Assembly: GCA_013286285.1 (NCBI GenBank)
Contig: JABDGA010000008.1
Location: 1-48,769, forward strand
Reading direction: 5' to 3'
Length of the DNA: 48,769 nt
Source: Alphaproteobacteria bacterium
GTDB taxonomy: Bacteria; Pseudomonadota; Alphaproteobacteria; Rickettsiales; JABCZZ01
The translations under genes and the position numbers were made by a program. Below the pieces are notes generated by a model. That model was not told the origin of the DNA. It made no database searches and was given only the letters and a program-made list of their open reading frames with translations. Numbering within the stretch: position 1 is the stretch's first letter; every line of letters starts with the position of its first letter. Shown here in pieces: positions 641 to 9,759 of this stretch.

Positions 641-2614
641 ATGAATAGCTTGCGTTATTACCCCAGACATAATCCTATATACTCTCCAAATTCCGGCTTC
701 ACGTTGATCGAGCTGTCAGTGGTGCTGGCGATTATCGGCGTGATTCTCTATGGCAGCATGAGTTTATTGGTAGTAAGCATTCAGTCTTCACAGGTCAATA
801 CGACGGTGGCTACTATGGATGCAATAGAAAACGCGCTGCTTAACTTCCGGGTGGCGTTTGGACGCATTCCCTGCCCTGCCGATCTTACCCTGTCCGCATC
901 CAACGCCAACTATGGAGTGGAGGCGGCCAATACCGGTAGTTGTACCGGCGGCACGCCTGCTGCAAATTTTATAGCGGCTTCCGGCACAGCGGAAGGCGGT
1001 GTACCCACGCGTGCCCTGCGTCTGCCGGACAGCTACATGTATGACGGCTGGGGCCATAAGTTACGTTATGCGATGAACCCTAATTACAGCGTTAGCACGA
1101 GTACTACTTGCTCTTTAGGCGCAGTTTCAGCCCCCGCCATTACTATAAATGACGCAAGCGGTGCAGCACGAAGTACACAGGCTATTTATGCTATTATCAG
1201 CCATGGCGCGAACGGGCATGGCGCATATACTTCTAATGGCCTCGTCATTAATGCGAAAAACACGAACACAGATGAACAAACCAACTGCCATTGTGATAAC
1301 ACCGGCGCACATACTGGTGGTGCGGGCGTGCTCTCACCGGCAACGTATGTCCAGAAGGCACCGACAATGAGCACTGCGGGCACCCTGCTTACCACGTTTG
1401 ACGACATTGTCGCCTACAAGGAAGCCTGGCAGTTGATGACTACCAGCCTGCCAACAAATTCGTTAGGCTGTACGTTCACTCAATATACGCGTGCGATTAC
1501 GATTGATCATACAAAAGTCGGCACTGTCAATAATACCGATCAAAGCAGTTTTCCCGTGTTGTTTTCTGGCACGTATACCTACCTAAAAACTGTGGCCAAT
1601 GGGGGAAATGTAAACAATGCCAACGGTTATGACATATATTTCTCTTCTGATGCTGCTGGCAATAGCCTTCTTCCCTTCGAGCGTGAAAGCTGGAATGCCT
1701 CTACCGGCGCGTCCGTGTTCTGGGTACAGGTAGCGACCGTTTCCCATAGCAGTGATACCGTCATCTATCTGCAATATGGCAACCCCACTATCTCCACGGA
1801 TAAATCCAATAAAACCGGAACGTGGAACACCAATTATGTGGGAGTCTGGCATTTGGCGGAAACCAGTGGAACCACTAATGCAGATTCCACAACTAATGTC
1901 CTTAACACAACCAAAGTCTCTGCAACGCATCCTAATCCTGCCACCAGTATTATAGGAGGAGGAGGACAGTATAATAATGCTGGCTACAACCATCTTGGAA
2001 CTGATTACAATACGCTTGCCGATAATTCCAAACTGGATTTCGGAGCAAACCAAAATTTTACGGTTTCCGCTTGGGTAAAAAATTCACAAACCGCCATAAG
2101 CAATTATTGGCCCTTTCCCGTATCGAAAGATGACCTTGGCAGTTCCGGTACACGTCAAGGATATAATCTCGTGATGTTTGATACGAGCTGGGGTAATAAT
2201 TACTGGTTTTTTGAAATCTGGCAAGCAAGTAGTAACTATAGAGCATATGGTAGCAGTAGTGTTTCAGATGGTAATTGGCACTATATTGTGGGTTCACGCT
2301 CAGGAAGTACGCTCTATGCGTTTCAAGACGGAGTGCAAACTGCTGCACAAAGCGGTGCCGGATATAATGGCACGCTCAGTAACCCTATTCCCCTGGAGTT
2401 TGGAGACTGTTCAAACTGTAATGCGAATGGCACTAAGGATAGGAATTATATCGGTGGTCTGGACGAAGTGCGTATTTCCAAAACTGCTCTTTCCGCCGAC
2501 TGGGTTAAAACCGAATATAATAACCAGGGTTGGCCGGATAAAGCAACCACCCCTTCCCCTATTCCAAGTGGACTGACAAGCGGATTCTATACGGTGGGAA
2601 GTGCCACACGGTAG
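641..2614 (+). CDS. Pseudopilin-like protein fused to DUF2341 and LamG-like domains
   Basis: About 657 residues. Near the N-terminus is a prepilin peptidase site and hydrophobic helix (G|FTLIELSVVLAIIGVIL), the mark of type IV pilins and type II secretion pseudopilins. A region with RIPCPAD follows, as seen in alphaproteobacterial pseudopilin-like proteins. Residues about 280-390 resemble DUF2341 (QYTRAITIDH, then YDIYFSSDAAG and VIYLQYGN). Residues about 390-650 look like a LamG/concanavalin-type fold (VGVWHLAE at its start, LDEVRIS near the end). The expected role is a surface or secretion-linked filament subunit displaying a carbohydrate- or protein-binding module; that is inference. The start is uncertain. 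ATG at 641 gives a basic 19-residue leader but no clear Shine-Dalgarno; GTG 593 and ATG 596 are in frame upstream. No other pilus gene is nearby. Confidence 0.8.
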   Translation: MNSLRYYPRHNPIYSPNSGFTLIELSVVLAIIGVILYGSMSLLVVSIQSSQVNTTVATMDAIENALLNFRVAFGRIPCPADLTLSASNANYGVEAANTGSCTGGTPAANFIAASGTAEGGVPTRALRLPDSYMYDGWGHKLRYAMNPNYSVSTSTTCSLGAVSAPAITINDASGAARSTQAIYAIISHGANGHGAYTSNGLVINAKNTNTDEQTNCHCDNTGAHTGGAGVLSPATYVQKAPTMSTAGTLLTTFDDIVAYKEAWQLMTTSLPTNSLGCTFTQYTRAITIDHTKVGTVNNTDQSSFPVLFSGTYTYLKTVANGGNVNNANGYDIYFSSDAAGNSLLPFERESWNASTGASVFWVQVATVSHSSDTVIYLQYGNPTISTDKSNKTGTWNTNYVGVWHLAETSGTTNADSTTNVLNTTKVSATHPNPATSIIGGGGQYNNAGYNHLGTDYNTLADNSKLDFGANQNFTVSAWVKNSQTAISNYWPFPVSKDDLGSSGTRQGYNLVMFDTSWGNNYWFFEIWQASSNYRAYGSSSVSDGNWHYIVGSRSGSTLYAFQDGVQTAAQSGAGYNGTLSNPIPLEFGDCSNCNANGTKDRNYIGGLDEVRISKTALSADWVKTEYNNQGWPDKATTPSPIPSGLTSGFYTVGSATR

Positions 2615-8028: not shown

Positions 8029-8212
8029 TGAACCTGCCAGATAATGTTGCCCTATAGTGCGGTAACAGAAAATATTCAATAAAGTGTCATAAAAAATTAA
8101 TACTAATCCGCTATTTCCAGGCTTCAAATAATGATATGATGAGCTAATTAACCATCTGTGCTATATATTGGCAAGCGCAGGGGGAAATTCAGAAATATCA
8201 AGGAGATATTGC

Positions 8213-8836
8213 ATGCTATATTCCTCTCAGAAACCAGCAGTCCAACGTCAGGAAGCCGGCCAAAAACGCGGCGCAGCAGGGAAAATGCTTATCCTATCCA
8301 CCTCTCTTGCTTTCGGATTACTGGTCTCTTCAGGATTGACCAACGCCACACAGGCGCAAACTGCAACCTCCGCTCCCCCTTTATTAGGACTATTGACACA
8401 GATACTACAAATCGACCAACAAATCCTGCAGCTTGAGTTACAGCTCCTGCAGGCTGCTGGTACGCCAACGCCGACACCAACCCCGACTGTAACCGCAACG
8501 CCAACACCCACTGCAACTCCGACTCCGATGCCGACTCCAACCCCCACTCCTACCGCAACTCCGACTCCAACACCTACCGCAACGCCGACACCAACCCCGA
8601 CTTCTTCAACCGGTTTGCAGGGAACTTTGACTGAACTGGCTCAAATAGAGGCACAGATTACGCAAATATTACAGCAGGTCGAGACAGAATTAGGCAATGG
8701 CGGTACTGCCACCACCACCTCTACGGCTACAACTACGACAACCACGACTAATACTGGAACAACATCACCTACCAGTTCGGCATTTGGCGCATTGCGGGTA
8801 CCACATTGCACCGGAGAATTTAATTGCGGACACTGA
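8213..8836 (+). CDS. Exported Thr/Pro-repeat protein with C-terminal CTGEFNC motif
   Basis: The start is set at ATG 8213 because a strong AAGGAGAT ribosome site lies 5-7 bases upstream; an in-frame start at 8168 lacks one. Of the 207 residues, about 25-50 form a signal peptide ([15 protein letters not shown], then an AQA-like cleavage region). Next come an Ile/Leu/Gln-rich amphipathic helix ([20 protein letters not shown]), a Pro-Thr linker of about 50 residues built of TPTP and TATP units, a second similar helix ([20 protein letters not shown]), a Thr-rich linker and the end CTGEFNCGH. No family is known to me. It is followed by a similar gene at 9028; the two look like diverged paralogues of one envelope or secreted protein type. 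Confidence 0.75.
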
Positions 8837-9027: not shown

Positions 9028-9759
9028 ATGTCTAATCGCACCTATCTCAGAACATTATTGTGGACCGTGCCATGCATCATTTCGCTTTTTGCAAGTGATA
9101 TAGCAGTCTCAGATACAGTGGTACCGCCTCCCAATGCTACTTCCATCTCAAGAGATAAAAATGATTTCAGTTTTAAATCGGATAAGCATCATAAAACAGT
9201 CCCCCATTGCCATCCCAAGCCCACCCCGACTACGGCACCAACCTCAACTACAGGCGGTGGCGGAGGAGGAGGTAGTGGTGGACCGACCACTGGCGATGGT
9301 AACTTGCAGCAAATATTGCAGGAGTTACTACAAGTCCAGACACAGATTGAACAAATATTACAGATATTACAGCAGATCCAAGGAGGTACTGGCATCACAA
9401 CGACTCCGACAGCGACTCCTACACCAAGCACAAGCACTACTCCTACCCCGACACCAAGTACAAGTATTACTCCTACCCCAACGCCGAGCACCAGTGCTAC
9501 TCCAACTCCAAGCCCAACTCCATCGCCCTCAATAACCCCAACATCAACTACCGGAACCGGCACTGCAGTTGCAGCACCCACTACCACTCCGACTCCTACC
9601 CCAACGACTCCCTCTGCCTCCTCTGGCAGCTCATCTTCCGGAGGTACGACTGCCGTCCCCACTCCGACTCCTCCCCCGACGCTTTGCGTATTGCTGGGTT
9701 GTAAAGCCAAGCCACAGTATGAATGCGTAGGAGAGTTTAACTGTCCTCCCCCCCAATAG
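9028..9759 (+). CDS. Exported Thr/Pro-repeat protein with C-terminal CVGEFNC motif
   Basis: This 243-residue protein has a signal peptide (LLWTVPCIISLFASDIAVS), a His/Lys-rich patch, a Gly-rich linker and an Ile/Leu/Gln helix (LQQILQELLQVQTQIEQILQ). A long Thr/Pro/Ser linker follows, then a short Cys-containing end with CVLLGCKAK and finally CVGEFNC. The helix type, linker and last motif are shared with the gene at 8213; elsewhere the two differ strongly. The helix may be a coiled coil that oligomerises, and the paired cysteines of the tail may form a disulfide; both are inference. The repeat-coding DNA makes long antisense frames here that are not genes. It converges with 9766-11352 with only 6 bp between. 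Confidence 0.75.
   Translation: MSNRTYLRTLLWTVPCIISLFASDIAVSDTVVPPPNATSISRDKNDFSFKSDKHHKTVPHCHPKPTPTTAPTSTTGGGGGGGSGGPTTGDGNLQQILQELLQVQTQIEQILQILQQIQGGTGITTTPTATPTPSTSTTPTPTPSTSITPTPTPSTSATPTPSPTPSPSITPTSTTGTGTAVAAPTTTPTPTPTTPSASSGSSSSGGTTAVPTPTPPPTLCVLLGCKAKPQYECVGEFNCPPPQ

Follow-up and report, generated by a model that had tools for sequence, protein, structure and literature searches.

Little is understood of the ways in which type IV pili acquire and alter their binding specificity. The published modular pilins number more than 1,200 (PMC8179133), and the combination of N_methyl with Laminin_G_3 (PF13385) ranks among the 15 most frequent architectures of such pilins in an InterPro survey (PMC8179133). 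Experiments have established PilB and PilC of S. sanguinis as modular pilins, the latter with a concanavalin A (ConA)-like lectin, and a role as pilus adhesin is known experimentally for this architecture class (PMC8179133, PMC9934059).

The window analysed here, 48,769 nucleotides, is the entire contig C8 of a metagenome-assembled genome of the order Rickettsiales (1.45 Mb, 53% complete; hereafter the source genome). It carries on the forward strand, at 641–2614, a complete modular prepilin gene of 657 aa, recognized from its frame, its Pfam domains and three full-length paralogs. We consider it likely that the product is a modular minor type IV pilin displaying a lectin-like DUF2341-LamG module, probably at the tip of the filament, with a glycan as the most likely ligand. 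Like PilC and PilB of S. sanguinis, it is a class III prepilin with a non-pilin module at its C-terminus, and PilC likewise bears a ConA-like lectin (PMC9934059, PMC8179133). In S. sanguinis there is a single PilB and a single PilC, their genes lie in the pil locus and the pilin moiety is unusually short, whereas here we find an undescribed pilin module of ∼258 residues, a DUF2341 domain at the junction and at least five scattered copies. The available sections of the PF13385 survey (PMC8179133) hold no case of one cassette on several head subfamilies within a genome, nor of a replacement of cargo type between congeners, both of which are described below. There is also a likeness to CofB and TcpB, the tip minor pilins of type IVb systems, which are large minor pilins with extra C-terminal domains for display at the tip (PMC8179133); those of CofB, however, are described there as a β-repeat and a β-sandwich, not as DUF2341-LamG. 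The PilC/PilY1 tip adhesins of type IVa pili similarly present modular effectors (N-terminal in PilY1) on a conserved carrier at the tip (PMC8179133), but PilY1 is a non-pilin and its carrier is a β-propeller domain held by minor pilins. The earlier note on this DNA took pilins to be usually shorter than 200 residues, which stands for classical pilins but not for the large modular ones, an already published class (PMC8179133). While the architecture class as such is published, the head family, the cassette on multiple heads and the conserved frame round a variable lectin might surprise a specialist.

Domain architecture of the predicted prepilin

The frame is open from ATG 641, or from an upstream in-frame GTG at 593 as an alternative start, and runs through 657 intact codons to a stop at 2612–2614. 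Residues 1–19 (641–697, forward strand) form a predicted class III leader peptide, Gly19 being followed by Phe20 in the putative cleavage site ..PNSG|FTLIELSVVLAIIG.. The glycine at −1 and the glutamate at +5 (G19|F20-T-L-I-E24) read as a canonical prepilin site, and the glutamate at mature position 5 occurs in all four full-length copies of the source genome. The small residue at −1, a hydrophobic stretch and the N_methyl signature (GFxxxE) of class III signal peptides were thus all found, with matches to PF07963 at residues 17–38 (E 2.8e-6, 27.1 bits vs a cut-off of 21.2) and, again at the N-terminus, to TIGR02532 (28.1 bits vs 16.3). N_methyl is followed by DUF2341 and then by Laminin_G_3, all exceeding their gathering cut-offs, so that the module sequence proposed in the earlier note behind the prepilin N-terminus lies in one intact frame; the latter two are C-terminal domains not specific to pili, as expected of a modular pilin.

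Residues 20–277 (698–1471, forward strand) were delimited by head alignment and fold matches and comprise a long N-terminal helix and an undescribed globular head. Free-standing relatives of the head in the order, about 260–370 aa long, terminate at the same boundary, one of them (L107 of genome G002) right after FDD(I/V)V.YK, the conserved motif that closes the head, and 17 positions are invariant in an alignment of 16 diverse members. For the globular part there is no Pfam or NCBIfam model, and none of the sequence matches in the PDB reaches past the N-terminal helix. By its sequence, the segment is a complete predicted pilin module of an undescribed family, about 258 residues long; the earlier note had rightly recognized a pilin N-terminus, but underestimated a module that is free-standing in relatives. 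The structure prediction it had asked for gave a head model of low confidence (mean pLDDT 58.4), with an N-terminal helix over residues 22–73 plus strands, for which all seven matches in a PDB fold search were type IV pilins or pseudopilins. The best of them, the type IVb CofA pilus (9iuf), had an E of 0.038, which is not significant, and the model supports, short of demonstrating, a pilin fold for residues 20–277.

Since 21 other genomes sampled in the class carry the head, the family is not confined to the order; its distribution is restricted, yet wider than the order. These type IVb-like heads form a pilin family not described so far and missing from current profile libraries. Free-standing pilins of the same family, 27–33% identical to the head in the window, also occur on three IMG/VR viral contigs (L244, 1241–2332; L245, 3989–4837; L247, 3989–5098). 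Genes just upstream of the pilin in L244 and L247 read from sequence as S24/LexA-like repressors, and L244 additionally carries what reads as a YqaJ-like exonuclease. A phage database search with a viral-contig pilin as query returned no matches, and these pilins may be phage-borne or may be bacterial DNA misclassified.

At 380 residues (278–657), the cargo exceeds the pilin module in size. It begins with the DUF2341 domain (residues 278–400; 1472–1840, forward strand), which Pfam matches at residues 329–392 (E 1.5e-8) and whose model reaches a pLDDT of 93–98 from residue 281. A hypervariable LamG or ConA-like jelly-roll module follows (residues 401–616; 1841–2488, forward strand), matched by Laminin_G_3 (PF13385) at residues 453–622 with E 1.4e-15 and 58.2 bits vs a cut-off of 27.6. 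The cargo model matches carbohydrate-binding jelly rolls, among them the carbohydrate-binding domain 4 of AbnA (5hon; TM-score 0.73 by target length), and sequence profile and jelly-roll fold agree in placing the module in the LamG superfamily. Non-lectin roles are also known for LamG domains. The top matches of the fold search (clostridial neurotoxin binding domains, PAPP-A, a trans-sialidase, an arabinanase module) share the generic jelly-roll lectin fold at 9–18% identity and give no hint of a toxin; the TafC family fimbrial protein model NF052521 scored under its cut-off (32.8 vs 410 bits) and on the LamG part only. The protein ends in a conserved tail recognized by paralog identity (residues 617–657; 2489–2611, forward strand; SADWxKTEYNNQ...FYTVGS), of which Y626, N627, N628 and Q629 are nearly invariant among 45 relatives, a conservation from which we would guess that the tail folds back onto DUF2341. 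The same cassette with its EYNNQ tail occurs in DUF2341-LamG proteins of Patescibacteria, Bacteroidota and archaea at about 25–36% identity over residues 282–632. A plasmid search for DUF2341-LamG gave two weak matches only, and a search of a literature library found no paper on DUF2341 with LamG, nor on NHL repeats on pilins.

A conserved frame around a variable lectin core

In the source genome, three further full-length genes share this domain order, paralogs found on contigs C12 (60% identity), C9 (59%) and C3 (46%), and the start of contig C19 falls inside a fifth copy, which is truncated by it. The full-length copies are here called P1–P4, and P5 is the headless one, which runs from DUF2341 onward with its preceding linker; all five DUF2341-LamG copies come after pilin-type sequence. 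Among P1–P4, identity is 76–83% in the head (42–47% in the globular part for pairs with P4), 63–72% in DUF2341 and 68–78% in the tail (residues 613–657), but only 23–33% in the LamG core. Such a conserved frame around a lectin that varies between paralogs is a new observation. Pairs with DUF2341 identities of at least 71% (71–86%) have LamG identities either of about 63% and above or of 23–31%, with none between. DUF2341 and LamG are also decoupled in other bacteria (L051, L061, L067), which may make this a general property of the cassette.

Two readings of this variability were weighed. The lectin core may have been exchanged inside a conserved DUF2341-tail frame, or all cores may go back to one ancestor and owe their differences to rapid divergence under diversifying selection, with the DUF2341 frame kept under constraint; as an account of the LamG variability only, this common descent is quite possible, if somewhat short of an even chance. 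It is compatible with an AU test that did not reject a single clade of the five LamG cores of the source genome (p 0.26), and with synonymous sites that are saturated in nearly all module comparisons, so that timing is unreadable; dating the modules by dN/dS was dropped on that account. On the other hand, the best LamG tree places the five cores in five places, beside LamG modules of other phyla, whereas the five DUF2341 domains group together in a single clade (SH-aLRT 99). For four of the five cores, scores against external LamGs also clearly exceed those against every sister paralog, for the fifth (P3) the two are about equal, and DUF2341 behaves in the opposite way, scoring higher against its sisters, in comparisons where the external LamG/DUF2341 set is larger than the paralog set and biases both domains toward external best matches. 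The two discontinuous ranges of LamG identity and the GC3 of LamG, in each copy lower than the head's, further speak against common descent. Taken together, the comparisons suggest, without proving it, that exchange of LamG inside the frame is the better reading. A diversity-generating retroelement was rejected as the origin of the lectin variability, as the source genome, 53% complete, holds no RVT_1 (reverse transcriptase) match.

Possible cargo replacement on shared pilin heads

Across the order, the same heads bear quite different cargo, a combination that is new. NHL propellers follow the head in G001, G002 and G003, RCC1 propellers and a WD40-like propeller in G015, a WD40-like part in G025 and 20 FG-GAP repeats in a protein of 2408 aa in G022; a head of G026 carries a LamG-like cargo (a weak match under the cut-off) and one of G008 a glycine-rich cargo. 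DUF2341, by comparison, was found in one of the 105 genomes of the order searched, the source genome itself, where all five matches are modular pilin genes.

In the head tree, P1–P3 cluster with NHL-bearing heads of G001 and G002 and with L048 (98/92), while P4 clusters with NHL-bearing heads of G002 and G003 (100/99). The linker before the DUF2341 domain of P5 is 44–51% identical over ∼140 residues to those of three other pilins of G002, all of which run into NHL repeats. Because P1–P3 and P4 fall in separate supported clades, the branches force the reading that at least two head clades of this genome bear the cassette, and the linker identity of P5 points to a probable third head type. One cassette on several head types of a single genome, with congeners bearing NHL on the same heads, is likewise new. 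No NHL was found in the source genome, which is 53% complete, in distinction to its presence in G001, G002 and G003, and it may still sit in the missing half.

The simplest reading is that the lineage acquired the DUF2341-LamG cassette, which then spread over several pilin heads. More broadly, and tentatively, the pilins of the order might be interchangeable carriers, on which an acquired cassette (NHL, RCC1 or DUF2341-LamG) spreads over paralogous heads and replaces earlier cargo, the terminal lectin then being exchanged inside the DUF2341-tail frame. If this holds, the pili would constitute a set with a changing repertoire of binding specificities. The genus, with homologous heads that carry NHL in two congeners and in a third genome of the family and DUF2341-LamG here, looks like a natural experiment, in which cargo replacement on pilins becomes directly testable given more genomes; its homologous pilins with differing terminal lectins also make a set usable in binding assays.

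Pilus machinery and proposed display of the lectin-like module

The source genome encodes the platform protein PilC on contig C17 and the prepilin peptidase PilD on C11, and the complete congener G002 has PilB (MshEN + T2SSE), PilC, PilD and a pilT-pilU pair, genes that together point to a type IV pilus machine. No PilB- or PilT-type ATPase was found in the source genome, 53% complete. At least one T2SSE-type ATPase occurs in each of 14 genomes tested, mostly one of ∼330 residues as expected for VirB11; none of that size was found in the source genome. VirB8-VirB9-VirB10-VirB11 form a run in G002, with VirB4 nearby, and the source genome has a VirB8-VirB9 pair, resembling the rvh secretion system of Rickettsiales. 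Deep-branching Rickettsiales are also known to have type IV pili, Tad pili, flagella and PHB storage (PMC9352585, PMC10847448).

Among 28 genomes of the order, with head presence called at E up to 1e-14, PilD is present in 19 of the 20 head-positive and in three of the eight head-negative ones (Fisher p 0.003; p 0.0025 among genomes at least 90% complete), p-values that overstate independence, as related genomes share ancestry. In seven genomes (G002, G003, G008, G010, G018, G019, G026) the matches to a head-type pilin gene and to pilD are about 0.1–1.5 kb apart. The search for homologues and pilus gene context suggested in the earlier note yielded both the same architecture in paralogs and related head genes that often adjoin pilD.

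In the mechanism that we favor, prepilin peptidase would cut the leader after Gly19, and residues 20–277 would be built into the pilus like any large pilin of type IVb-like form. The DUF2341-LamG cassette (278–657), bulky as it is, would stay exposed on the outside, probably at the pilus tip, and its LamG jelly roll could bind a surface ligand there, by inference a glycan. With at least five genes on at least two, and probably three, head subfamilies and lectin cores almost unrelated in sequence, one cell could therefore present several binding specificities on one pilus type.

Alternatively, the pilin part might serve only as secretion signal and membrane anchor, holding DUF2341-LamG on the cell envelope and never entering a filament. 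The modular pilin gene does stand alone, outside any pilus operon, its cargo exceeds the pilin module, and DUF2341-LamG is found elsewhere on non-pilin carriers, for instance on a protein annotated as MotA/TolQ/ExbB family that is encoded on Klebsiella plasmids. Yet a mere anchor has no need of a conserved head of 258 residues, and it leaves unexplained why such heads also exist alone. The co-occurrence of the head with PilD and its proximity to pilD favor filament assembly, and we regard an anchor as improbable. Of the two options left side by side in the earlier note, display on a filament is thus the better one, as the whole head module and the known pilus adhesins of the same architecture class also suggest.

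Less probable still than an anchor is that the protein tips the pseudopilus of a type II secretion system (T2SS) and aids protein export; the pseudopilin label of the earlier note finds no support. The N-terminal segment does match the GspG and GspH models weakly, but at 27.5 vs 88.85 and 18.2 vs 80 bits the scores are far under the cut-offs and the matches span the helix only; besides, the congener G002 has the pilT-pilU pair, which belongs to retractile pili, and none of the regions examined showed a T2SS gene cluster.

Beside the type IV pilus genes, contig C2 of the source genome holds a Tad-like set (L102, 5330–13032: CpaF-type ATPase, CpaE-like, secretin-like and CpaB-like genes, all but the first named from sequence) next to which no platform genes lie. 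A further pilin class, its members about 300 aa long (GFTLIELSIVLVIIGLIVGG...), is present as numerous copies at scattered sites, for example L014 (4946–5899 and 5856–6803) and L015 (8314–9228) in the source genome and L109–L122 in G002, which has about 20; it represents a large orphan pilin expansion.

Integrity of the frame and surroundings of the gene

That two genes were joined by an assembly error is practically negligible, even though only 641 bases separate the gene from the contig end of a fragmented assembly, because the paralogs on C12, C9 and C3 have the identical join on separate contigs, with no stop or frame shift; the artefact that the earlier note had named as its refutation is thereby set aside.

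Positions 1–567 of the window are the 3′ part of a gene that, judged by its sequence, probably encodes a polyhydroxyalkanoate synthase (Pfam gives a weak α/β hydrolase match); its likely homologue in G002 lies about 2.3 kb from pilT-pilU and has a different 3′ neighbour gene. Just downstream of the pilin gene are two copies of a short repeat, TCATTCCNGCGAAAGNNGGAATC (2793–2815 and 2943–2965), one of them inside an imperfect inverted repeat, which resembles a dispersed intergenic repeat. Farther on, two adjacent ORFs (8168–8836 and 9028–9759) contain long Pro-Thr repeat tracts and a common C-terminal GEFNC motif, and possibly encode secreted or cell-surface proteins.
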